From assembly GCF_003667345.1 (NCBI RefSeq), contig NZ_RCWF01000004.1, positions 1 through 64,000 of the forward strand: DNA of 64,000 nt. Reading direction: 5' to 3'. Shown here piece after piece: positions 9,622-22,280 of this stretch (the stretch's first letter is position 1; each line of letters begins with the position of its first letter). Under the pieces are notes generated by a model that did not search any database, was not told the origin of the DNA, and saw nothing but the letters and a program-made list of their open reading frames with translations. The stretch is from Poseidonibacter antarcticus. GTDB lineage: Bacteria; Campylobacterota; Campylobacteria; Campylobacterales; Arcobacteraceae. The position numbers were made by a program, and so were the translations under genes.

Positions 9622-9968
9622 ATTTATAATTCCTATATATTTATCTCATTTGAACGTATTGTATTAAAATTAGGTTTAATTAACGAAATATTAAACTATT
9701 TACATATTTTTGCTTGCTCAATTTTCTAGATAATCAATTATGATTTAGTTATAAAAGAGCTTTGAGTTCCTAAAAATTTAAAATCAAAACACGAATTTAA
9801 TCCATAACACAAATAAAATTTTATACTCACTCTTATGAGTTAGTTTATTCTGATACTTATAAATAATATTTTAATGTTTTAAGAAATAAAACTTTTAAAT
9901 TCTTCATTTCTTAAATTAAAAGATATAATACCCACTAATTTAATACAAAAATAAACAGGGGTAAGTAT
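9622..9968. other. Divergent intergenic region with a sensor-kinase promoter
   Basis: 347 bp without a credible gene. A TATAAT hexamer at 9924-9929 (AGATATAATACC) is a likely -10 for the sensor kinase. Upstream of it AAGAAAT (9881-9887) and ATTTCTT (9906-9912) form a weak inverted repeat. Nothing else stands out; the mfd operon promoter must lie in the first 100 bp but has no clear consensus. Confidence 0.4.
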
Positions 9969-12233
9969 TTGAGAAATCAAGTAAAAAATTTATTAAGAAT
10001 CATAAGATTTTTTCCTCTTCTCATCATACTTGCAATTAGTATATTAGTAATAACTGTTCTAATCAATGAAGAGAAAAGAGAAATACAAGTTGAAAAAATA
10101 AATATAGAAAAACAATTTCTTCAAGATGAAAAAGAAAGAATAAAATTAAATGTCGATACTGTATACAATTATCTTAAAATACATAAAGATATTGCTGAAG
10201 ATGAACTAAGAAAAGATTTAAAAAGTAAAATCAATAATGTGTATAAAATAATATCAAATATTTATATTAATAACAAAGACAAAAAATCTAAAGATGAGAT
10301 TATCCAACAAATTAAAGAAGCAGTTGATACTATAAGATATAATAATGGCAATGGATATTTCTCAATACATACATTAGATGGAATAAATATTCTTCAACCT
10401 GTTAATAGAAGTTTTGAAGGAACAAATATATTTAACAGAAGAGATACAAAAGGTAATTATAGTATACAAAAAGCGATATCAATTGCAAAAAATAAAGGTG
10501 AAGGTTTTTTTACGTGGTATTTCCCAAAACCTAATGATAAATCAAAAGAGTTTGAAAAAATTGGAATTGTAAAAAAATTTGAACCATATAGTTTAATCAT
10601 AACAACAGCTGTATATAGAGATGATTTTCTAAATAAATTAAAAAAACAAACTCTAAATTATATTTCACAATTAAAGTATAAAAATGATGGATATATTTAT
10701 ATAATATCATTTAATGGCGATATAATTTATCATCCATCAAAAAAACTATTAACTGCTAATATCTTTAGAGAAAAAAGATTTTCTTATATAAAAAATTCTT
10801 TTAAAGAATTAATTTCTAAAAATACTATAGATACAGCAGATTACTTTCTAGTTAAATCCAAAATAGATAAAAAAAATACCCAAGAAACTAATATTACTTA
10901 TTCAAAAAAGTTTAACAATTGGGAATGGATTATATCTACAAATTTTAAACTTTCAGATGCAAATTATATTATAGAAAATATGAAAGTCCTTCAAGAAGAA
11001 AAATATGAAAATTATAAAGATGATATTATTTTTTATGGATTACTTTTTACAATATTCTTTTTAATTATTTCATATTTTATCTCTAAATTATTAGAAAAAG
11101 AATTTTTAAAATACCAAATTAAAATTGAAGAAGAAAAAGATACATTACTACTTTCACAAAAAATCACTAAAGTGGGACATTGGAAATATGAAGTAGCAAC
11201 AAGAAAAGAGTATCTTTCAGAAGAAATTAAAATAATGTTTGGAATAAAAGAGATAAAAGACAATATATTTATTGATTACCTAAAAGAAGTTTTACATAAA
11301 GATGATTTACCTAGAGTTATGAAAGCATTTAATAAAACATTAGAAACAAAAAAAGATTTTAACCAAATATATAGAATACATAGACCTAATAATAAGATTA
11401 GATGGATAAGTAGCAAGGCTACACTTAACGAAGAAAAAGGATATATAAAAGGTGTTGCACAAGATATAACAGAATTAAAAGAACTAGAACTAGAAAAGAA
11501 ACAAAAAGATGATATGTTATATCAACAAAGCAAAATGGCTGCTATGGGTGAAATGCTTGGAAATATTGCACATCAATGGAGACAACCTTTATCTACAATT
11601 TCAACTGCATCAACTGGTGCTAAACTACAAAAAGAAATGAATATTTTAAGTGATGAGCAATTATATAAATCATTAACTATAATTAATGATTCTGCACAAT
11701 ATCTTTCACAAACAATTGATGATTTTAGAGGTTTTTTTAATCCAAAATATAATATAAAAAAAGAATTTGATATTAATAAAGCTATTAATAAAACTATAAA
11801 ATTGTTAAATTCTCAATTTAACGCAAAAAATATAGAGCTTATAAAAAATGTACAGAATCATAAACTTAAATCAATTGAAAATGAAATAATACAAGTTTTA
11901 ATAAATCTACTTAATAATGCAAGAGATGCCCTACTTTCTAAAGAAAAACAAAGAAGATTAATATTTATTAATACATATAGAAAAGATGATAATATATATT
12001 TAGAAATATTGGATAATGCAGGTGGAATTGAGAAAAATATTATAAATAGAATTTTTGAACCATATTTTACGACAAAACAAAACTCACAAGGAACTGGAAT
12101 AGGATTATATATGAGTCAAGATATTATAATAAATCATTTAAAAGGTAGTCTTGTGGTTTCTAATGAAAAGTATGTATTTGAAAACATCCACTATACAGGA
12201 GCTAAATTTATTATTTTACTACCTTTGTCTTAA
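9969..12233 (+). CDS. Cache-PAS sensor histidine kinase
   Basis: Membrane sensor kinase of 754 residues. A first membrane segment (about 10-32) and a second (about 355-376) bracket a periplasmic region with two Cache-like modules, each with the N/D-GYIYI-type signature (GNGYFSIH and NDGYIYIIS). A PAS domain ending GVAQDITELKE follows, then the HisKA motif MGEMLGNIAHQWRQPLS with phospho-acceptor His at residue 535, an N-box (NLLNNARDAL) and G-boxes (DNAGGI, GTGIGLYM). The start is TTG, supported by AGGGG 7 nt upstream. No response regulator is adjacent, so it is an orphan kinase. The ligand is unknown; Cache domains usually bind small organic acids or amino acids. Confidence 0.88.
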   Translation: MRNQVKNLLRIIRFFPLLIILAISILVITVLINEEKREIQVEKINIEKQFLQDEKERIKLNVDTVYNYLKIHKDIAEDELRKDLKSKINNVYKIISNIYINNKDKKSKDEIIQQIKEAVDTIRYNNGNGYFSIHTLDGINILQPVNRSFEGTNIFNRRDTKGNYSIQKAISIAKNKGEGFFTWYFPKPNDKSKEFEKIGIVKKFEPYSLIITTAVYRDDFLNKLKKQTLNYISQLKYKNDGYIYIISFNGDIIYHPSKKLLTANIFREKRFSYIKNSFKELISKNTIDTADYFLVKSKIDKKNTQETNITYSKKFNNWEWIISTNFKLSDANYIIENMKVLQEEKYENYKDDIIFYGLLFTIFFLIISYFISKLLEKEFLKYQIKIEEEKDTLLLSQKITKVGHWKYEVATRKEYLSEEIKIMFGIKEIKDNIFIDYLKEVLHKDDLPRVMKAFNKTLETKKDFNQIYRIHRPNNKIRWISSKATLNEEKGYIKGVAQDITELKELELEKKQKDDMLYQQSKMAAMGEMLGNIAHQWRQPLSTISTASTGAKLQKEMNILSDEQLYKSLTIINDSAQYLSQTIDDFRGFFNPKYNIKKEFDINKAINKTIKLLNSQFNAKNIELIKNVQNHKLKSIENEIIQVLINLLNNARDALLSKEKQRRLIFINTYRKDDNIYLEILDNAGGIEKNIINRIFEPYFTTKQNSQGTGIGLYMSQDIIINHLKGSLVVSNEKYVFENIHYTGAKFIILLPLS

Positions 12234-12254
12234 AAGCCTTATTTTAAGGGCTTT
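12233..12254. terminator. Hairpin after the sensor kinase gene
   Basis: AAAGCC (12233-12238) pairs with GGCTTT (12249-12254) and the stem extends inward through TTA/TAA. It directly follows the kinase stop codon. The plus strand lacks a T-run after it, so efficiency is uncertain; the minus strand has one. Confidence 0.45.
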
Positions 12255-12270
12255 AAAAATACCTGTTTTT

Positions 12271-12281
12271 AAATTGTTCCA
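12271..12281. repeat. Candidate left attachment-site core of the island
   Basis: AAATTGTTCCA lies 20 bp beyond the integrase stop codon and recurs at 19561-19571, on the far side of the accessory block. In both places GTTCCA is followed within 15 bp by ACCAAG. An 11-bp direct repeat flanking a block with an integrase at one end is the usual pattern for attL/attR, but the match is short and no tRNA is involved. Confidence 0.3.
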
Positions 12282-12300
12282 AAACTGAACCAAGTTTGTA

Positions 12301-13377
12301 CTAGTTAAGTAAAAAAGTTCCTCTTCTTTTCTTATCATTCTTAATATACTTTGCATAAGTTGAAAGAGTGATGTTAGAATTTTTATGTCCTAGCATATTA
12401 GAAACCCAAAGAATATCTTCTCCGCTTGAAATCATCATACTTGCAAAAGTATGTCTCATTTGATATAAATTTCTATATGGAATCTCAAGTTTTTTTAAAA
12501 CCTTTTTCCAATAAGTTGTAGAAATCTTCATTGCTGAGTGATATGGTTTATTTAAATTAGAATTAAATACATATTCAGAGTTATCTATCTTATATTTTAA
12601 ATGATTTTTAATGTAAGGAATAAGTACATCTAAAATATCTACATCTCTAATACTAGATTTAGTTTTAGGACTTGTTTCAATTCCTTTATTTCTTGTAGCT
12701 CTTACATGAATAACTTTTGAATCTAAATTTATATCAGACCATTTTAGAGCAGTTATTTCTCCAGTTCTCATACCAGTAAAAAATCCTATTGCAAAGAATA
12801 GTTTTATTTTATTAGGTGTTGCATCTAAGATTCTAAATATTTCTTCTTTTGAAAAAGGTTTATTCTCTCTTATTGCAATATTTTTAGGAGACTTAACTAT
12901 TGAAAAAGGATTTTTAGGAATCAATTCATCTCTAAATGCATCTTCTAAAATACCATGAAATATCACTCTTATATTTATTACTGATTTTGAGGATAATTTT
13001 TCTAATAGATTATTTTGCCATAAGGCTAATTCACTAGGTTTTAATGAATCAATTTTTCTATTACCAAAATAAGGAATTACATGTTTATCTAAATTAGATT
13101 CATAACACTTATGAGTTAATACTTTTCTACTAGCTTCATTCATCTTCAAACTAATATCAATCATCTCTTTTACAGTTGGAACAATTTTATTTTCAAAGAA
13201 CTCTCCACTATGTACTTTTAAAAGCATTTGCGGAATTATTTGTGTTGTTGCTAATTTTCTATTAGCTTTTGTATCTTCTATATTAAGTGACTTTTTAATC
13301 ACTTCACCATTTAAACTAAATCGTACCCAAAGCTTTACACCTCGTGTATATAATTTAGGTTCTGTCATCTTCATCAT
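12301..13377 (-). CDS. Phage-type tyrosine recombinase (integrase)
   Basis: Site-specific integrase of 358 residues, full length for a phage or island integrase. An arm-binding N-terminus (about 1-70) and a core-binding domain (about 75-180) precede the catalytic domain with FFTGMRTGEI (box I Arg), YQMRHTFAS (box II; Tyr replaces the first His, as in many P2-like integrases) and LGHKNSNITLSTYAKY (His and nucleophilic Tyr). AGGAG sits 7 nt upstream of the first of three possible ATG starts. It lies at the outer left end of the accessory block, next to the candidate att core, and probably excises and inserts it. Confidence 0.92.
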   Translation of the reverse strand: MMKMTEPKLYTRGVKLWVRFSLNGEVIKKSLNIEDTKANRKLATTQIIPQMLLKVHSGEFFENKIVPTVKEMIDISLKMNEASRKVLTHKCYESNLDKHVIPYFGNRKIDSLKPSELALWQNNLLEKLSSKSVINIRVIFHGILEDAFRDELIPKNPFSIVKSPKNIAIRENKPFSKEEIFRILDATPNKIKLFFAIGFFTGMRTGEITALKWSDINLDSKVIHVRATRNKGIETSPKTKSSIRDVDILDVLIPYIKNHLKYKIDNSEYVFNSNLNKPYHSAMKISTTYWKKVLKKLEIPYRNLYQMRHTFASMMISSGEDILWVSNMLGHKNSNITLSTYAKYIKNDKKRRGTFLLN

Positions 13378-13441
13378 GTTATCTCCTGTGATAACACCTT
13401 AAAATAACAACTACTAACAATAGAATTAATTTTACAAGAAT

Positions 13442-13753
13442 TCATATTAAATCCTTTAGAACCATATTAGCTATTTCTTTTGGCTTCATCATATTTTGAG
13501 AAGAAGTTACCCATTTATCTAATTCAAGCTTATCAAATAACACTCTTCCTGCTTTTTTATAATAATGTTTGCCTTCTATAAAATGATCAGCCTTTAGCTT
13601 ATGTATATGGTCTTTTGAGTAACCAAGATAATATGCTGTTTCAGCAACATTTAGCCATCTTTTTTCAACTTTATTTTCTATCTTTTCACTTAATACTTTT
13701 ACCATTTCTACTATTTGTGGTATTTGATTTACTGCTTCTATATTTAGATTCAT
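13442..13753 (-). CDS. Excisionase-like helix-turn-helix protein
   Basis: Small DNA-binding protein of 103 residues. The central part (WLNVAETAYYLGYSKDHIHKL and the KAGRVLFDKLELDKW segment) is the winged helix of the MerR/AlpA excisionase superfamily. A strong ribosome site (GGAGG) lies 8 nt upstream. It sits just upstream of the integrase in the same direction, the classical xis-int order, so it probably steers excision or controls integrase expression. Its promoter region shares a long motif with that of the 125-codon gene upstream. Confidence 0.8.
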   Translation of the reverse strand: MNLNIEAVNQIPQIVEMVKVLSEKIENKVEKRWLNVAETAYYLGYSKDHIHKLKADHFIEGKHYYKKAGRVLFDKLELDKWVTSSQNMMKPKEIANMVLKDLI

Positions 13754-13795
13754 GGGAAATTCCTCCTTTCCTTTTTGTTTTTTATATTATTGTAA

Positions 13796-13848
13796 TCTTT
13801 GCAAAAAATCTTTTTTAATGATTAATTACAAAGATTTAGACCTTTAAT
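13796..13848 (-). promoter_or_regulatory. Shared promoter element, copy upstream of the excisionase gene
   Basis: The plus-strand sequence AAAAAATCTTTTTT-AATGA-TTAATTA-CAAAG-ATTTAGAC matches a second copy at about 15155-15200 over roughly 45 bp. In this copy AATCTTTG and CAAAGATT flank it as an inverted repeat. Both copies lie upstream of minus-strand genes of the recombination module, so a common operator/promoter is inferred. Confidence 0.45.
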
Positions 13849-13856
13849 AACTATTA

Positions 13857-14723
13857 TCATGCTCTTTTCAAGTAATAATTAGTCATTTCTTCTCTTGAAT
13901 GATTTATTTCTTTTGAGATCTCTTTTAAAATTGTTTTATACTCTTGACCTAGTTCAAGTCTTTTTTCAACTTCATTTTTTACAAATGTGTATCTAAAGTC
14001 ATGAGGGGTAACATCATAAGCTTTTAAATGATTTGCATAAGTTCTTTGAGTTGGAAGATTATCAACTAATTTAATTTTTGTAAGCAATGAAGAAGTAATA
14101 TTTTTGGGAGTATATTCATGATTTCCTTTTCCTATTACTCCTATTAACTTTCCATCATTGTAATATTTATCAATATTTCCAACAACTTCAAATGCTTCGG
14201 AGACTCTAAATCCTAGTTCTAATTGTGTTTGAGCAACAACTGCTATTTCATAGCTTTTTTCATACAAATTATTTATCAATTTATCAGCTTCATTTATTGC
14301 TCTTCCTTGTATAGGATTAATATCAGGCATTTGTCTAATCTCCATCATCTTTTCTTCAAATACATCTTTTGTAACTAACATATCAACATTAGATTTTTCT
14401 AATCCTTCTAACATAGAAGAGAATGCTCTAACATAGTTTTCACATGAACTCTTTGCTAAATCTTGTGTTCTATAGTTTAAAAACTCTTTAACAGTCTCAT
14501 TATTCATATGAATATTAAGTTTGCCTTCTAAGCCTTTATTAGTACAGTACTCAGCAAAACTTTTACTCATTTCTGCTCTTTTTATTGATAAAGCTGATGA
14601 ATGAGTTTGTTTATCTGTTCTTCCATGTCTTTTTTCACCAAAAGCTGAAAGCCTATGGTGAATATCCTTTACTTGCTTTTCAAAGCTACTTCCTTTTAAA
14701 TTAGCCATTTCTTTGTATCTCAT
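13857..14723 (-). CDS. Second tyrosine recombinase
   Basis: A 288-residue protein with the tyrosine recombinase catalytic set in the right order: Arg in LELGFRVSEAFE, Lys in IGKGNHEYTP, HxxR in TPHDFRYTF, then INHSREEMTNYYLKR holding the late His/Arg and the candidate Tyr nucleophile. The N-terminal half contains a SAM-like core-binding domain (KSSCENYVRAFSSML). It lacks an arm-binding domain and shows no insertion that would mark an integron integrase. The frame starts inside the preceding gene (overlap 23 bp; an alternative ATG at 14708 would give 8 bp). Its substrate site is unknown and may be the hairpin sites nearby. Confidence 0.75.
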   Translation of the reverse strand: MRYKEMANLKGSSFEKQVKDIHHRLSAFGEKRHGRTDKQTHSSALSIKRAEMSKSFAEYCTNKGLEGKLNIHMNNETVKEFLNYRTQDLAKSSCENYVRAFSSMLEGLEKSNVDMLVTKDVFEEKMMEIRQMPDINPIQGRAINEADKLINNLYEKSYEIAVVAQTQLELGFRVSEAFEVVGNIDKYYNDGKLIGVIGKGNHEYTPKNITSSLLTKIKLVDNLPTQRTYANHLKAYDVTPHDFRYTFVKNEVEKRLELGQEYKTILKEISKEINHSREEMTNYYLKRA

Positions 14724-15078
14724 TAGTTTTTATAAAGTTAGCTATTGCACTTCGTGAAATAGTTACCTTGTGATGTAGCTTTAGATATCTTGCAATATTT
14801 ATTGCACCTGATCCTTCTTGATATAACTTAATAATTACATCCATATATTTTGAGATAATTAGATTTTTTGTTTTATATTTACTCTTTTCTTTAAGTTCTT
14901 GTGCTTGTTTTTCATTAGCTTCTGTTTTTAATTCATCTAAAATTATATAGCTCTTTAAAAGTAAATTACCATCTATTTTTAAATACTTTGCTTGTTTAAA
15001 AAGTAAAGATTTCACTTGTTCTTCTGGCAAAGAAATATTCTTTACTAATTTTTTAATTTTTATATTATTGAAGCTCAT
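14701..15078 (-). CDS. Hypothetical protein with C-terminal HTH-like region
   Basis: A 125-residue Lys-rich protein. Residues about 80-120 (KLYQEGSGAINIARYLK followed by VTISRSAIANFIK) look like a resolvase-type helix-turn-helix; the rest is helical with no recognised fold. It overlaps the second recombinase and is almost certainly co-expressed with it, so an accessory DNA-binding role in recombination is inferred. A ribosome site (AAGGAG) precedes the start. Confidence 0.6.
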   Translation of the reverse strand: MSFNNIKIKKLVKNISLPEEQVKSLLFKQAKYLKIDGNLLLKSYIILDELKTEANEKQAQELKEKSKYKTKNLIISKYMDVIIKLYQEGSGAINIARYLKLHHKVTISRSAIANFIKTNEIQRNG

Positions 15079-15154
15079 TTTTTATTCTCCTTTTTTTGAA
15101 TTATTAAGGCAATAAAGCCCACTCTTAACGTGTTTTGAATAGTAGTATAAAATT

Positions 15155-15200
15155 TAAAAAAAATCTTTTTTTATTGAATAATCAAATTTTTAGACTAATA
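15155..15200 (-). promoter_or_regulatory. Shared promoter element, copy upstream of the 125-codon gene
   Basis: The plus-strand sequence AAAAAATCTTTTTTT-ATTGA-ATAATCA-AATTT-TTAGAC aligns with the copy near 13796-13848. On the minus strand a TATACT-like -10 follows it, upstream of the gene starting at 15078. It is probably the promoter/operator of the recombinase module. Confidence 0.45.
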
Positions 15201-15656
15201 TATTCAGCATTCCCTAGAAGGAAATATAATTTTTAAAAAAAATATTCAATTACAAACACAAAATGTTTTTACTTTACAATTAAAGCAGTAGAGATTGTTT
15301 AGCAATGTAATTTACTTTTTAGAAAAGAAGAAATTACGAAAGAAAATAATGACTATATAAAACTTACTAGAAAGTAAGCTCTAATAGTAGAAAGACTGCA
15401 TTAATAACAGCACCATATAATCTGATTAGAATTTTATAATTGATTGTATTTAAGGCATGTTTCTTATTTAATTGTTGGAAAGCTTCAATTCTATAAAGCT
15501 TTTTATCGTTGTTAATAGTTGTTAATATTCATATTCATACCTTTAAAAATTAAGAGATAATCTATCTCCATACTTTTGTTATAGGAAAGTATTTGAAAAA
15601 AAACAAGTTTTAAAAAAGAATTTTGAAATTTCTTAAAAAAAGCATAAAAAAGTCGT

Positions 15657-15848
15657 TTTTAAAGTATCACGAGCGTAATACTTTAAAAGCCCGATATTAT
15701 CGAAGCTTTTAAGCATCTTACTTAATATCGCATTTTTTATAGAAATTTCCCATACCCTACAGGATGGGTTTTCTATAAAAAAAATTCGGGAGACACGTCT
15801 CCCGGTCTCTATGAAAAAACGCAAGCTTATTTTCATAGAGACCGGGAG
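15657..15848. repeat. Array of five consecutive hairpins
   Basis: In order: TTTTAAAGTAT (15657-15667) pairs with ATACTTTAAAA (15678-15688), 11 bp. CGATATTA pairs with TAATATCG (about 15692-15734) and encloses GCTT/AAGC. TTTTTATAGAAA plus CCCAT pair with ATGGG plus TTTCTATAAAAA (about 15735-15783). CGGGAGAC pairs with GTCTCCCG (15787-15804). CTCCCGGTCTCTATGAAAA (15799-15817) pairs with its exact complement at 15830-15848, 19 bp. The last two share bases, so they are alternative folds. Known terminators or CRISPR repeats do not explain this. A folded single-stranded substrate, a structured RNA or a dispersed genomic repeat are possible. Confidence 0.6.
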
Positions 15849-16054
15849 GGTGACATGCGTGGAAAAGACTTTGTGAGCGTGGATTTAATTGTTTGGAATG
15901 GGATATGAAATTGTATGAAGCTTTAAATGATTAATTTTTTGTTCCACAATCCCTTAAGGTTTGTGAGACTTTGTAGTTTTTACTTTTTGAACACTTTGTG
16001 GAACACTGAAAACTAATATGAGTGTTTTATGTTCCAAATATAAGAGGTTTAGCA

Positions 16055-16122
16055 ACTTAACGTTTAAAATGAGACAATAAATTGCTCCTAGGGTAATTTA
16101 TTGTCTCCTCTGATTTGTTAGC
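16055..16122 (-). repeat. attC-like hairpin site A
   Basis: This 68-bp element directly follows the stop codon of the 158-codon gene. Read in the gene direction it starts GCTAAC and ends GTTAAGT, a perfect match to the integron core consensus GTTRRRY. Inside, GAGACAATAAATT and AATTTATTGTCTC form a perfect 13-bp stem around an 11-nt loop. It is identical at 54 of 68 positions to site B after the next gene, while the genes differ. The first core box departs from RYYYAAC, so the term attC-like is used. Confidence 0.5.
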
Positions 16123-16124
16123 AT

Positions 16125-16601
16125 TTAATTTAATCCTAACAATGCAACCAAGACTGCTAGAATTAAGCCAGCACCAATTGTCATAACCCAAGGATTATTT
16201 AAGAAGGAAAAAATGAAGTTTGATGTTTCATGTCCAGGAGCTCCTGTAATATACAGAGAAGTTACATCTTCTCCTGCATATACAATATCTTCTAGTTTGT
16301 AACCATACCCTAAACTGATTATTGCTATTGAATCTGATTGTCTGTTTAGTTCTTGAACCCTCTTAAAACTTTCGTCTTGAATAATAGAACGCTCGTCTTC
16401 ATTTTTTTTGTTCGTACGTATAATTTGAACACTTTTAATATTTTCAATACGGACCACGTCTTTGTCGCATAATATATCTTTACCCTTTTTGTATAGTCGA
16501 ACAAACTTCATTTTTAACTCTTGTTCTGATAAATCATCCAGCACGCACTGAGGATTCTCAGGCGACTCTGTGAATGTGACTAATACATGGTAATAAGGCA
16601 T
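16125..16601 (-). CDS. Unknown cassette protein with C-terminal membrane anchor
   Basis: A 158-residue protein not recognised as any family. The soluble part (1-125) is rich in charged residues. One hydrophobic helix at about 135-156 ends the chain, so the protein is predicted to be tail-anchored with the bulk in the cytoplasm. GGAGA lies 6 nt upstream of the ATG. It is bracketed by two attC-like sites and is less A+T-rich than the surrounding genome, both signs of recent transfer as a mobile cassette. No function is proposed. Confidence 0.65.
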   Translation of the reverse strand: MPYYHVLVTFTESPENPQCVLDDLSEQELKMKFVRLYKKGKDILCDKDVVRIENIKSVQIIRTNKKNEDERSIIQDESFKRVQELNRQSDSIAIISLGYGYKLEDIVYAGEDVTSLYITGAPGHETSNFIFSFLNNPWVMTIGAGLILAVLVALLGLN

Positions 16602-16614
16602 CTGTTCTCCTGTA

Positions 16615-16682
16615 TCCTAATGTTTAAAATGAGCCGATGAATTGCCAATAAGGTAATTTATTGGTTCCTCTGTATTGTTAGC
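16615..16682 (-). repeat. attC-like hairpin site B
   Basis: This 68-bp element overlaps the last base of the stop codon of the HrgA-like gene. In gene direction it starts GCTAAC and ends ATTAGGA, a degenerate core (GTT replaced by ATT). Compared with site A, the stem has one compensatory change (A-T to C-G) and three changes that give G-T wobble pairs on the plus strand but A-C mismatches on the minus strand. The plus strand, the 'bottom' strand relative to the genes, is therefore the one whose folding is kept, as in true attC sites. Confidence 0.5.
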
Positions 16683-16691
16683 TATTTATTC
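16677..16691. repeat. 15-bp direct repeat at the cassette boundary, copy 1
   Basis: GTTAGCTATTTATTC covers the end of the HrgA-like gene and the start of attC-like site B. An identical copy lies at 17645-17659, upstream of the same gene, so the gene is flanked by direct repeats that contain the GTTAGC box. Confidence 0.55.
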
Positions 16692-17617
16692 CAATCTTTA
16701 CTTCTAATTCTTCCCGTTTGATAATACGTTGATACTAATTCTATATAATCTTTAAAATCTTCATTTTCAACGACGATACGATTAACGGACTGCCAATCAA
16801 TTTCTGGTCTTGCTTTAGCAGGTAAAATCATTTCACTTTCAGATGGATTTTCGGGATTTAGTAAAATTACTCCTACCCCATGAAGAGCCGAAAGCATTCG
16901 GAGTTCTTGTTCTACTTGGCTGCTTGAAATTGCTGTTGAAACTAAATAGCCTTCATTTGCCCAACTTGAATTACTTACAGCTTGGAAGAAACTTTTTCGT
17001 ACATTAGAACCATTGAGTTCTTTTTTGACCTCGAATGACCATAAGCGAACGCTTTGTCCATCGCCATGTTGTATACAAGTTCTTACTAAGTTATTCCATT
17101 CTTTGTCTACTGCTTGCATTGCTACTATATCTGGATGCAACCATTGATTTCCACCTGAACCGCGTTGATTCTTTGACCTTTTTTCATCAATTCGTAAGCA
17201 GTAAAGCTTATGCTCGGATTTTAAATATTCAATGAGAATTGGATATAGATCATGTTCAGAAAATAATTTGTTGTTTGGAACAGATATCACTTCATCATCC
17301 TCTTCATCATTTATATCTATTGTATCTTCCCCAACTAATTTTTCAGGATCATACCAATAAACACGAGGACGAGGTTTGTCTTGCCAAAATACATGTGGAT
17401 TGTTTTTGATAATTTGATCTTTTTGCGCTCCAATTTCAGCCACAATCTGAGATATAAAGGCCTTGTTGTCATTAAATCTTGGATTGTTCCTTTTTTCTGC
17501 ATAATCTTCTGGGTACTCAGAAACAATGGCATCAGCAATTTGTCTAGCATTGAAACGTTCATTGGGATTTATTTTTAAAAATTCTATAATTTTTTGTGAT
17601 TGAGATAACCTTGACAC
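16682..17617 (-). CDS. HrgA-like protein: winged helix plus PD-(D/E)XK nuclease domain
   Basis: A 311-residue protein resembling the COG2958/HrgA family, known next to restriction systems in Helicobacter. The N-terminal 110 residues look like a HARE-type winged helix (SQKIIEFLKINPNERFNARQIADAI). The C-terminal half has the order expected for a PD-(D/E)XK nuclease: HPDIVAM, then LWSFEVKKEL (E-x-K), then a conserved region with WANEGYLVS. It is predicted to be a DNA-acting cytosolic protein, probably defensive. It is followed by attC-like site B and is less A+T-rich than its surroundings. A 15-bp copy of its 3' end with GTTAGC lies upstream of its start. Confidence 0.7.
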   Translation of the reverse strand: MSRLSQSQKIIEFLKINPNERFNARQIADAIVSEYPEDYAEKRNNPRFNDNKAFISQIVAEIGAQKDQIIKNNPHVFWQDKPRPRVYWYDPEKLVGEDTIDINDEEDDEVISVPNNKLFSEHDLYPILIEYLKSEHKLYCLRIDEKRSKNQRGSGGNQWLHPDIVAMQAVDKEWNNLVRTCIQHGDGQSVRLWSFEVKKELNGSNVRKSFFQAVSNSSWANEGYLVSTAISSSQVEQELRMLSALHGVGVILLNPENPSESEMILPAKARPEIDWQSVNRIVVENEDFKDYIELVSTYYQTGRIRSKDWNK

Positions 17618-17644
17618 TATTTTAGAACCTCCATATTTTTTCTA

Positions 17645-17659
17645 GTTAGCTATTTATTC
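17645..17659. repeat. 15-bp direct repeat at the cassette boundary, copy 2
   Basis: Identical GTTAGCTATTTATTC, 27 bp upstream of the HrgA-like start codon. It may be the scar of a previous cassette end or a former recombination site. No 68-bp hairpin accompanies this copy. Confidence 0.5.
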
Positions 17660-17774
17660 AACAAACATTATATTTAGATTAGCTTGATATCTACTAAATA
17701 AATGAACGCTGAAATTATTAATTTGGATTATATATTTTTAAGAAACGAAATATTTTTGTTCTGATTATTTAAAG

Positions 17775-17966
17775 ATGTCCAAGCTAGATAATTTTCCAAA
17801 AACAATACTTATTGAACATATTCCAAATTTTAAGTCTTTTTTGAACAATCTCAAAATTAGTAAAAACTGCTCCAAAAATAAGACTTTTAAAGAAAACTAT
17901 GACTTTTTGTATCAAAAATATTCATTACAATATGTAATTTTTATTAACTATTATATCAATTTGTAA
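17775..17966 (+). CDS. Small ORF of unknown function
   Basis: 63 codons, Lys/Asn/Ile-rich, no recognised motif and no good ribosome site (only TTAAAG before the ATG). It is listed because its stop is followed after one base by the ATG of the next ORF, an arrangement typical of coupled genes. It may equally be a non-coding leader. Low confidence. Confidence 0.3.
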   Translation: MSKLDNFPKTILIEHIPNFKSFLNNLKISKNCSKNKTFKENYDFLYQKYSLQYVIFINYYINL

Positions 17967-17967
17967 T

Positions 17968-18258
17968 ATGAAATATCTTGAATCCTATCACTTAACAGAC
18001 CTTGAAAGCTATTGCAAGAATAAGTGCATTAGTATTGTAATAGATCATCATAATGAAGATAGAGATAAGATTACTTACTATCGTGGCTTATATGGTGGTT
18101 ATCTTTATGGTAAGAAGTTAGCAAGTAGTTTAAAAAGAACAAAAAAGAGATTAACTAATATTGAATTGTACAATCATATAAAAGTTCACAAGAATTGGAA
18201 AGCTAAAAGTCGAGGTGAGCAAGATGCACTATATGATATTATGAATTATTTGAGTTGA
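17968..18258 (+). CDS. Small basic protein of unknown function
   Basis: A 96-residue, Tyr- and Lys-rich protein (LESYHLTDLESYCKNKC, then YYRGLYGGYLYGKKLASSLK). It is soluble and basic enough to bind nucleic acid, but no family is recognised. It is tightly coupled to the small ORF before it and precedes the Mrr-type nuclease gene by 79 bp, where TATTATAAT could serve as a separate promoter. Probably real. Confidence 0.5.
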   Translation: MKYLESYHLTDLESYCKNKCISIVIDHHNEDRDKITYYRGLYGGYLYGKKLASSLKRTKKRLTNIELYNHIKVHKNWKAKSRGEQDALYDIMNYLS

Positions 18259-18337
18259 TTAAGTAGTTACTTGTAATTAAATAATAATTTATTATGATAT
18301 TATAATAAAATTATTAATATAAATTATAAGGTTATTA

Positions 18338-19147
18338 ATGTTAAAAAAAGAATATTACTTAATTAAACAATCCTTCCCTCATTTAGATGTAAAAATAAAT
18401 AAAATTTATTGTCCTACAAATATCCAACATTTAAAAAAGTTTATTTCATATATGGCTGGTACTATCGAAGTATATTTATATAATGAAGAAAATGGAAAAA
18501 GAGAAGATTTAACTGAAAGTTTAGGCAATAGAAATTTTAATGTGTATGATCATAGATTTGAATTAGTAAGATTAATTAAAATGATATATTCCCATCCTCA
18601 TTTAAAAAATAAGTATATTTCATTTTATGCTCTGTCTGACGTAAGACCAGACTTTTTACCAAAATTTTTTATGTTTAATTATGTTTATACAAGTCGTGGT
18701 TTAGAACATCAATTTGAAAGTGATGGAATTAGCTGTAAGATTGATGATCATAATAAAAAGCAAACTTATGGAAATGAATATGAAGTTTTTATTGCTGAGA
18801 AATATCAAGATAATGGTTATTCAGTAGAGAATAGGGGAATTAAAAACTCATTTAATGATGGAGGTTTAGATGTTATTGCCAGAAAAGATAATAAACTTAT
18901 TTTAGTTCAATGTAAAAATTGGACAATGTCTAATAGTTTTAAAATAAACCAAAAAGACATTAGAGCATTTATAGGTGATTGTTTTATATATTTAAAAGAT
19001 ATTAATTTAGAAGGAATAAAAGTTTCTTATCATTTTATAGTCTCTCATGATAATATATTAACAAAATCTGCAGAAATATTTTTAAAACAAAATACTTTTG
19101 TTAAATTTAAGTGTGTTGCTTTTGAAGACAAAAATTTAATTGAATAA
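18338..19147 (+). CDS. Mrr-like restriction endonuclease
   Basis: A 269-residue protein. The N-terminal 140 residues are not recognised. The C-terminal part has the Mrr_cat fold: YGNEYEVFIAEKYQDNGYSV, GLDVIARKD with the metal-binding Asp, and LVQCKNWT (Q-x-K), i.e. a complete PD-(D/E)XK-type active site. Mrr-type enzymes cut DNA carrying foreign or modified bases, or act in two-gene defence systems. The gene sits on the plus strand in the accessory block, upstream of a decayed gene. TAAGG precedes the ATG. Nuclease assignment is good; target unknown. Confidence 0.75.
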   Translation: MLKKEYYLIKQSFPHLDVKINKIYCPTNIQHLKKFISYMAGTIEVYLYNEENGKREDLTESLGNRNFNVYDHRFELVRLIKMIYSHPHLKNKYISFYALSDVRPDFLPKFFMFNYVYTSRGLEHQFESDGISCKIDDHNKKQTYGNEYEVFIAEKYQDNGYSVENRGIKNSFNDGGLDVIARKDNKLILVQCKNWTMSNSFKINQKDIRAFIGDCFIYLKDINLEGIKVSYHFIVSHDNILTKSAEIFLKQNTFVKFKCVAFEDKNLIE

Positions 19148-19161
19148 AAAAGTGGTAATAA

Positions 19162-19362
19162 ATGAACTCATACAATAAATTAAAAACTTTTCTAAAAGAT
19201 AAAATGAGAATGTCTCATATTTATTAACCCGTATTTATAAAAGAACTAATAAAGAATAATGGTACTTGACATAAATTAGAAGATATTGCAAAAGCCTTTT
19301 TGAATTATGATAAAAGTCAAGTTGAATATTATGAATACATAACTAAAACAATGGAGTGGTAA
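19162..19362 (+). pseudogene. Decayed N-terminal fragment of a nuclease/helicase-like gene
   Basis: One continuous frame of 67 codons is interrupted by TAA at 19225-19227 and TGA at 19267-19269. Read through, it contains FLKDKMRMSHIY-(stop)-PVFIKELIKNNGT and HKLEDIAKAFLNYDKSQVE, and ends KTMEW. I recall this N-terminal pattern from HNH-endonuclease/helicase-type proteins, where the first stop would be Gln (CAA to TAA). The rest of the gene is missing. A second degenerate copy of its first 50 bp begins at about 19356 (AGTGGTAAT, then TTCATAC, then GATAAAAT). Confidence 0.5.
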
Positions 19363-19738
19363 TATAAATTCATACTCGGAATTGAAAAATTCTGAGATAA
19401 AATAACAAGTTTAACAACCTGTAGATTTTGGAATTTCTTCTAAACTTCAAACTAAATTGTTCAACTTTAATATGATTTTAATTACTACTGGTAATTGATA
19501 TAAAACTCTAGACTATCCTGATTAATTAATCATAGGTCTAAAGTTTCATTTAGATAAATAAAATTGTTCCAGTTTCGTTCCAGTTTTACCAAGGATAAAC
19601 AAAGCATATATCTTTTTCATTTGTTAGAAAGTTGCTTTTTAAGGTGTTTTGTATATTTTAATCAATTATCTAATAAAATTTATTATAGAAATTCCACTTG
19701 AATAAGAATTCTATATTATAAACTTAGCTTTTTTTGCC
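19363..19738. other. Non-coding right end of the island
   Basis: 376 bp without a gene. It holds the degenerate repeat of the pseudogene start (to about 19410) and the candidate right att core AAATTGTTCCA at 19561-19571, with a second GTTCCA at 19579-19584. The remainder, before the DUF445 gene end, is A+T-rich with nothing recognisable. Confidence 0.4.
19561..19571. repeat. Candidate right attachment-site core of the island
   Basis: AAATTGTTCCA, identical to 12271-12281 beyond the integrase. Chromosomal-type genes begin right after this region. If correct, the element is about 7.3 kb. Confidence 0.3.
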
Positions 19739-20446
19739 TTACATTATTAACGTAGAAACTAAGCCAATTAATCCACCAAAAACGGCACCCCAAATTACTA
19801 ACCATCCTAGGTGTTCTTTTATGATATTTTGTACCATTTCTTTTACCATTAATGGTGTTAATTCATCTAGTCTTTTATTTACAACTAAACTTAATTTTTC
19901 ATAGATATCTTCTGATAAACTATCTGATTTTAATGCATCTTCTAATACTTCTTGGAAAGCTTTTGTTTTTGTTATATCTATTATTGAGCTTTGTAATTTT
20001 TTTGTAAATGGTTCTTTCAAAGGTTCTAAAGCTTCAACTCCTCCGAACATTCCTAGCATTCCACCAAATGATGATTCCATTACTGATTCTTTTAAAGAGT
20101 TATAAGCTGGTGTGAAATCTGTTTTATTTAATATTTTTTCAAAGTCTACTGTTTTTTTTGCACTTTGCATTTCATCTTGGAAAAATCTTGATAAGTTTTC
20201 TTTTGTAAAAAACTGATTCATTAATAGATTATGAATTGAACTTTTAAATTTTGCAAAATTCTTTTCTATTACTCCACTTCCATATAAATATGGTACCTTT
20301 TCAAAAAGCATATGGATAGCTAATGTATTTGTAACTGCTCCACTTAATGCAAAAAGTCCAACCATAAAAATAGTGTCATTTCCATTTGAATAACCATAAG
20401 CCATGATTAAAACTGTTATTAGATTTGTTATATCTGATTTGTTCAT
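19739..20446 (-). CDS. DUF445-family membrane protein
   Basis: A 235-residue protein. Hydrophobic segments lie at the N-terminus (about 5-45) and at the very C-terminus (LVIWGAVFGGLIGLVSTLIM, 215-234), with a helical soluble part between. The N-terminal AVTNTLAIHMLFEKVPYLYGSGVIEKNF block, here split by position across residues 36-64, is the DUF445/YheB signature. Family function is unknown. Transcribed singly, divergent from the acyltransferase gene. Confidence 0.8.
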   Translation of the reverse strand: MNKSDITNLITVLIMAYGYSNGNDTIFMVGLFALSGAVTNTLAIHMLFEKVPYLYGSGVIEKNFAKFKSSIHNLLMNQFFTKENLSRFFQDEMQSAKKTVDFEKILNKTDFTPAYNSLKESVMESSFGGMLGMFGGVEALEPLKEPFTKKLQSSIIDITKTKAFQEVLEDALKSDSLSEDIYEKLSLVVNKRLDELTPLMVKEMVQNIIKEHLGWLVIWGAVFGGLIGLVSTLIM

Positions 20447-20567
20447 TTATTAATTTCCTTACTCTTTTATTTGTGAATTTTATCATAATTTTTTGAAAAT
20501 ATTATTTTAATAAATAGTGTTACTGTTTTGTAATCAAAGCAAACTACAATTTCAAGAAGGAGCATAT

Positions 20568-22280
20568 ATGATAGATGTACAAAAAGAGATAGAAAAGAAA
20601 TTTCCTAATATTCATAAGAAGCAAGATTTTTTAAAAAAATCCCTATTTAAGATTGCAAAAAAAATAGTTCATGAAGATTCTATAAACAATTTTTTAGATG
20701 AAAATTCACATTTAAAAGGTTTGGAGTTTGTTGATGCTGTATTAGATTATTTTGATTTTGATTATAGTGTTTCTAGTACTGATTTACAAAATATACCAAG
20801 TAGTGGGAAAGTTGTAATAATTGCAAATCATCCCTTAGGTGGACTTGATGCACTTTGTTTATTAAGATTAATTTCACAAGTAAGATCTGATATTAAAATA
20901 ATTGCAAATGATTTTCTAGCAGGATTTGAAGCTTTAAATAATCTTTTAATTCCAATTGATAATTATAAAAACAGACAATCTAAAACAGATATTAAAAAAA
21001 TTTATAAAGCTTTAAATAATGAAGAAGCAGTGATTATTTTTCCAGCAGGAGAAGTTAGTCGTGCGACAACAAAAGGAATAAAAGACCCATCTTGGAATAA
21101 AGGTTTTCTAAAATTTGCTCAAAATTCTAATTCTCCAATATTACCAATTTTTTTAGATGCAAAGAATTCAAAAACGTTTTATACAATTTCTGTAATTAAT
21201 AAAACTTTTTCAACTCTTTTACTATCAAATGAGATGTTTAATAAAAAATCAAAAAGAATTAATATAAAAATTGGTGAGATTATTCCACATGAAAATATTT
21301 CACCAAAAGGTTTAGATAAAAAATATCTAATCAATTTATATAAAAAACACTTATACTCTTTAAAAAAGAGAAAAAAAAGCTTTTTTCAAACACAAAGTGC
21401 AATTGCACATCCTCAAAAAAGACAAGATTTAATGAATGAATTAAAATTATCAGAGCTAATTGGTGAAACAAATGATGGTAAAAAAATATATTTATATGAT
21501 TATACTGATGATTCAATTGTTTTAAAAGAACTAGGACGCCTTAGAGAATTATCTTTTAGAAAAATTGGTGAAGGTTTAAATAAAAAAAGAGATACAGATA
21601 AATATGATATTTATTATCAACATATTATTCTTTGGGATGAGAATGATTTAGAAATTGTAGGTTCATATAGAATTGGAAATTCTAATTTTATTTTTAAAAA
21701 TATTGGTGTTAAAGGTTTTTATTCTAATACTTTATTTAAATATAATGAAAGTTTTACTCCATATTTAAAAAACTCAATTGAACTAGGAAGAAGTTTTGTT
21801 CAACCCAAATATTGGGGGACTAGAGCGCTTGATTATCTTTGGTATGGAATTGGAGCATATTTAAAAAAGAATCCAAATATCAAATATATGTTTGGTCCTG
21901 TTTCTATGAGTGCTACATTTCCAACAATTGCAAAAGATATGATGATATTTTATTATTCTCATTATTTTAAAGACCCAAAAGAGATGGTAAGTGCGAAACT
22001 TCCTTATCAATATTCTAATAATATCAATGAGATTAAAGACTCTTTTTGTTTAAATGATAAGAAAAAAGATTTTAAATTTTTAAAATCTACACTATTAAGT
22101 ATGGGTTTTTCTATTCCAACGCTTTATAAACAATATAGTGAAATTACAGAAGATAATGGTGTAAGATTCTTAGGATTTAATATTGATAAAAATTTTGCTG
22201 AGTGTATAGATGGATTTATACTAGTAAATGTAGAAAAGATAAAAGATGCTCCAAGAAAAAGATATATAGATAGAGACTAA
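20568..22280 (+). CDS. Acyltransferase fusion: PlsC-like plus GNAT/OlsB-like domains
   Basis: A 570-residue protein. The N-terminal half is a PlsC-type lysophospholipid acyltransferase: NHPLGGLD carries a catalytic-type H-x4-D motif and FPAGEVSR is the substrate block. The C-terminal half (from about 300) is an OlsB/hemolysin-type N-acyltransferase (LGRLRELSFRKIGEG, IVGSYRIG, ELGRSFVQ, then GPVSMS). OlsB with PlsC-like OlsA makes ornithine lipids, so an aminolipid synthesis role is inferred. The start at 20568 is chosen for AAGGAG 7 nt upstream; 17 codons further upstream lack support. Confidence 0.8.
   Translation: MIDVQKEIEKKFPNIHKKQDFLKKSLFKIAKKIVHEDSINNFLDENSHLKGLEFVDAVLDYFDFDYSVSSTDLQNIPSSGKVVIIANHPLGGLDALCLLRLISQVRSDIKIIANDFLAGFEALNNLLIPIDNYKNRQSKTDIKKIYKALNNEEAVIIFPAGEVSRATTKGIKDPSWNKGFLKFAQNSNSPILPIFLDAKNSKTFYTISVINKTFSTLLLSNEMFNKKSKRINIKIGEIIPHENISPKGLDKKYLINLYKKHLYSLKKRKKSFFQTQSAIAHPQKRQDLMNELKLSELIGETNDGKKIYLYDYTDDSIVLKELGRLRELSFRKIGEGLNKKRDTDKYDIYYQHIILWDENDLEIVGSYRIGNSNFIFKNIGVKGFYSNTLFKYNESFTPYLKNSIELGRSFVQPKYWGTRALDYLWYGIGAYLKKNPNIKYMFGPVSMSATFPTIAKDMMIFYYSHYFKDPKEMVSAKLPYQYSNNINEIKDSFCLNDKKKDFKFLKSTLLSMGFSIPTLYKQYSEITEDNGVRFLGFNIDKNFAECIDGFILVNVEKIKDAPRKRYIDRD

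Follow-up and report, generated by a model that had tools for sequence, protein, structure and literature searches.

Two attC sites in Poseidonibacter antarcticus that very probably mark integron cassettes without an integrase, and their relatives in Campylobacterota

The 64-kb stretch of Poseidonibacter antarcticus DNA analyzed here (the window) almost certainly carries a CALIN element of two gene cassettes, one composed of an HrgA-like gene and attC B, the other of a gene of 158 aa and attC A; the cassettes might still be moved if an IntI were supplied. The term CALIN reportedly originates with Cury et al. 2016. It is used for a cluster of attC sites lacking an integrase (PMC8618304, PMC9024848), and the criterion applied is at least two attC sites within 4 kb (PMC8352920). 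Site A, the end of cassette 2, lies at 16055..16123 (-) and is identified by a covariance model (R2, described below), by its fold and by a family alignment (A3); site B, the end of cassette 1, lies at 16615..16683 (-) and is identified by R2 and A3. The spacing from A to B is 560 bp, both sites thus falling within 4 kb, with no integrase alongside. A complete integron would have intI and attI beside the array, and intI is missing.

An initial annotation of the window had described two similar 68-bp elements, each following a same-strand gene, and both are present at the positions it gave, after the genes at 16125-16601 (-) and 16682-17617 (-). Direct comparison of A (16055-16122) and B (16615-16682) finds 54 of 68 positions identical, far above the best matches elsewhere in the window for random 68-mers (median 38, maximum 46 identities; n=150). 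The R' box of site A is GTTAAGT (16061-16055), the full GTTRRRY match that had been claimed; as a refinement, the R' box of site B reads ATTAGGA (16621-16615), with A replacing the G of GTT, and does not match GTTRRRY. TAAC is found in R'' of both sites, and the full motifs, TGCTAAC in A and AGCTAAC in B, each depart from RYYYAAC at one or two positions; across the family the R'' letters ahead of TAAC vary freely, and the G and TT of R' are nearly invariant (alignment A3). Judged from sequence, the crossover function of site B may be impaired without the G of GTT, and B is probably less fit for IntI cutting than A because it lacks this crossover base. An exact 15-mer, GTTAGCTATTTATTC, lies across the R'' edge of attC B (16677-16691) and occurs again at 17645-17659, just upstream of cassette 1, where it may be left over from a lost attC or be coincidental.

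Site A pairs without mismatch over the reported 13-bp stem on the gene strand, and over 16 pairs on the + strand. As folded DNA, A has -11.7 kcal/mol on the + strand versus -10.0 on the - strand, and B has -6.5 versus -4.9 kcal/mol, with the gene strand of B adopting another fold; better folding of the strand opposite to the genes is thus confirmed at both sites. Also upheld are a compensatory difference between A and B, in which one pair is altered on both sides from A-T to C-G, and three changes that pair on the + strand only (A-T to G.T twice, G-C to G.T once). In our reading of alignment A3, both sites have an internal loop between the L box and the stem. The A/B pair by itself is weak evidence as to the strand, and the evidence becomes strong because of the data from the whole family. 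Of 86 elements, 68 fold more stably as the bottom strand and 12 as the top strand, and G.T pairs over the whole set number 109 on the bottom strand versus 5 on the top. Among 58 aligned sites, 94.7% of cells are paired and two-sided change occurs at 7 pairs; at one pair of the L box, 52 of the 58 have U.G, for which the other strand would have an A.C mismatch. Unpaired extrahelical bases are expected in the L'' arm of an attC, and a point against the attC reading is that most members of this type show an internal loop in place of one distinct extrahelical base; in a second subtype a short bulge is found at that position.

The identity of the elements as attC sites was evaluated with R2, a covariance model made from the bottom strands of 16 attCs outside Campylobacterota, taken from class 1 integron cassettes on plasmids, a cyanobacterial plasmid integron and a Methylococcales symbiont. 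A further reference region (L242), with Salmonella effector genes in its flank, entered no analysis. To match the length of sites A and B, the loops were cut or padded so that each sequence spans 69 positions, a mild bias, and the E-values of R2 are rough. The model scored A at 24.1 bits and B at 17.2 bits over the 64-kb window, both on the + strand, with the next match at 10.9 bits, and over the whole 2.9-Mb genome it gave A and B as the sole matches up to E 10. As a control, the sites of five arrays in relatives were recovered by R2 on the bottom strand. The attC reading of the initial annotation is thereby supported by a model of known attCs that scores both of its sites. A rule-based scan for R'' and R' boxes with one hairpin found site A plus a weak chance match at 19745-19863, and missed site B because of its ATT. 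An earlier model, R1, a loop-less attC model of 48 positions, recovered neither the two sites nor the control arrays and was set aside as uninformative. With R3, a Campylobacterota attC model in which A and B are included, two further matches were observed in this genome: a third attC-like site, of the second subtype, between two minus-strand genes (C3:226360-226429; E 1.6e-7), and a half attC joined to a copy of a dispersed repeat (CGTTCCACAACCTC; C12:26511-26581).

The setting of these elements in related genomes is that of integron arrays. A DNA search found the element in 54 of 150 related genomes, often clustered, and the fetched loci have roughly one ORF per site in a single direction, with arrays of 13 sites in genome G022, 8 in G016 and 5 in G058. 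The conserved block runs from TAAC to CGTTA between variable flanks and is bounded by the R'' and R' boxes. A full-length IntI gene reading away from the array is present in G003, of the same genus, and in G016 and G058, and a broken or partial IntI lies beside the array at seven other loci; 24 of the 150 relatives have an integrase that scores over the integrase_gron cut-off. IntI1 and the IntI of G016 share 43.8% identity. The integron of several genera lies near a gene of 511 aa or of 481 aa, which are read as guaA and guaB.

The gene of cassette 2 (16125..16601, -) encodes a protein of 158 aa that belongs to no known family: no Pfam family was found at E 0.1, and NCBIfam matches were all below cut-off. 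From the spacing of the sites, and with the crossover position known from integron biology, excision of cassette 2 would release 560 bp, from the crossover point of B to that of A (16061..16620, -). A segment of cassette 2 and the 5' half of the attC behind it are also found inside the attC array of a genome of another family (G274), which supports movement of the cassette as a unit. The gene of cassette 1 (16682..17617, -), whose stop codon adjoins attC B, encodes an HrgA-like, restriction-associated protein of 311 aa, 68% identical to the "HrgA protein" of a Vibrio alginolyticus plasmid, on which the gene comes after a type I restriction gene. Plasmid homologues of HrgA in Vibrio and Alteromonas were considered as possible cassettes themselves; the two that were examined lie in restriction or transposon surroundings. 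The GC content of the cassettes is 0.32-0.36 versus 0.22-0.30 for the surroundings.

The CALIN is located between mfd and a conserved gene of 235 aa. In G008 these two genes are near neighbours, and elsewhere in the genus they are separated by 1-11 kb of differing DNA, a variation in spacing that indicates an insertion hotspot. Besides the CALIN, the hotspot in the window (9652-19757) contains genes for a phage-type integrase, for a second, recombinase-like protein and for an Mrr-like nuclease, and a 24-bp inverted repeat (15799-15848), 92% complementary with a 2-base gap, lies between the recombinase genes and the CALIN. In agreement with the absence of an integrase that had been asserted for the locus, a profile search of this genome found no integron integrase over the cut-off, in an assembly of 55 contigs that could have an IntI in a gap, and tblastn of the window found no IntI relic, giving a weak match to a phage-type integrase only. 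The best integrase matches in this genome include two XerH-like genes. Two similar XerH-like recombinase genes, divergent and adjacent, are present at C1:29754-31960, where one would be expected.

Hairpins directly after stop codons would also suit RNA structures at the ends of genes, transcription terminators among them, with only an incidental likeness to attC, and this reading is very improbable. The initial annotation had argued from strand asymmetry against RNA terminators, and the family data strengthen that argument, in that pairing is maintained on the strand opposite to the transcript (the 109 to 5 count of G.T pairs). Moreover, the conserved block stops at the R'' and R' boxes, no Rfam match was found in window positions 11000-21000, the attC-model matches are exactly these sites, IntI lies beside such arrays in relatives, and this genome has two strong copies only. 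An equally slight chance is given to the elements being a dispersed repeat, such as a MITE, that has nothing to do with integrons, as might be suggested by two copies of such identity and by related elements in many genomes. The search for more copies that had been proposed confirmed both the two strong copies here and recurrence in relatives, but in the relatives the elements form arrays of one orientation between single ORFs and beside IntI, not copies scattered both ways or at random loci; target-site duplications or insertions into ORFs at many loci would have spoken for a mobile repeat, and none was seen; the block is again bounded by the R'' and R' boxes, and the truly dispersed repeat next to site A is distinct from the attC element.

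A further alternative accepts the CALIN and differs as to its origin, holding that the locus was once a full integron, whose integrase and attI have since disappeared. Integrases are evidently lost often, given the broken or partial IntI beside arrays in many relatives, but the integrons of several relatives lie near guaA or guaB, the CALIN of the window sits in the variable hotspot from mfd to the 235-aa gene, and the window has no IntI relic. Decay in place is therefore considered unlikely, and arrival away from an integron, or together with the island, is likelier because relatives keep their integrons elsewhere.

Integron cassettes are excised and inserted when IntI cuts the folded bottom strand of attC next to the GTT of R'. 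For the two cassettes of the window, the + strand, which is the bottom strand of each site, would fold in single-stranded DNA to a hairpin that IntI could recognize, and a cut beside the R' GTT would release the cassette as a circle or allow its insertion elsewhere. The cassettes presumably derive from an integron of this phylum and would have entered the island away from any integron; if IntI were supplied they should still be movable, A more readily than B. The locus can be seen as a stranded piece of a gene-swapping system that is common in its phylum.

A dispersed repeat adjoins the cassettes. One copy (15934..16060, -) lies directly 3' of attC A and is not part of the attC, and a second, diverged copy (17812..17900, -; 41.9 bits) is located upstream of cassette 1, so that two copies flank the CALIN in direct orientation. 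The family has a core of AACCTCTTAnTTTTGGAACA..TGTTCCA, is roughly 110-150 bp long and was found in 45 of 150 relatives. In Arcobacteraceae, about ten loci spread over nine genomes, the site described here included, have 4 or 9 bases between the GTT of the terminal attC and AACCTCTTA..TTTTGGAACA, although at some of these junctions only an eroded attC is left. Tentatively, it may be proposed that cassette clusters of Arcobacteraceae end at a specific site in the repeat and that the repeats are scattered landing pads for IntI, an idea that is more doubtful than probable. If true, such landing pads would explain how a CALIN is seeded away from an integron, and cassette insertion at the repeat is in our view the question most worth following. 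As separate observations, 4-5 copies in the same orientation separate accessory or defence-like genes on contig C12 of this genome, in G054 and in G077 (L250 1906-9072; L115; L076; L119), and in three genomes the end of a serine resolvase gene lies about 20 bases away from a repeat copy.

Beyond these relatives, the attC type is present at E <= 0.001 in 98 of the 397 Campylobacterota species sampled, representing 33 of 68 genera. An integrase match at E <= 1e-40 was obtained in 43 of the 397 species, in 34 of them over the cut-off; among the 98 attC-bearing species, 39 have an integrase match and 59 do not, the latter count being inflated by draft genomes. It seems that the cassettes outlive the enzyme, with 59 of 98 species lacking an integrase at the threshold used. 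The Campylobacterota, Arcobacteraceae included, are thus a lineage with integron cassettes as a regular part of the genome. Sites of this kind had been called little known in Campylobacterota, and this view requires division: integrons and CALINs have been documented for the phylum at large (PMC8618304), and the accessible part of PMC10295459 tabulates both for Sulfurovum NBC37-1 and Sulfurimonas autotrophica, whereas for this attC type and its spread no description was found in the open-access literature, which is weak evidence. The taxon-specific attC models of the 2021 survey omit Campylobacterota (PMC8352920), and the phylum goes unmentioned in the main text of the IntegronFinder 2.0 paper; the 58-site alignment could act as a taxon-specific model for it.

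In comparison with known systems, the entries for Sulfurovum NBC37-1 and Sulfurimonas autotrophica (PMC10295459) concern the same phylum and integron pieces without a complete integron, and in its accessible part that source gives types only, with no site structure, phylum-wide count or Arcobacteraceae. The attCs of the class 1 cassettes aac(6')-Ib and blaOXA-1 resemble the present sites in their boxes and bottom-strand hairpin, with a striking likeness on the R'-L' side (TAACGTTTGACATGAG and TAACGTTTGAAATAAG versus TAACGTTTAAAATGAG); they differ from the present type in that its stem is AT-rich and it mostly has an internal loop, or in the second subtype a short bulge. The sedentary chromosomal integrons of G003, G016 and G058 share the attC type and cassettes on one strand, but have a divergently read IntI, whereas the window has neither IntI nor a recognized attI and the cluster occupies another genome location. 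The closest likeness is to CALIN elements, with two attCs 560 bp apart and same-strand, single-gene cassettes in the absence of an integrase; there is no structural difference from these, and what sets the present locus apart is an attC type that in these data is specific to Campylobacterota, together with the dispersed repeat that adjoins it.
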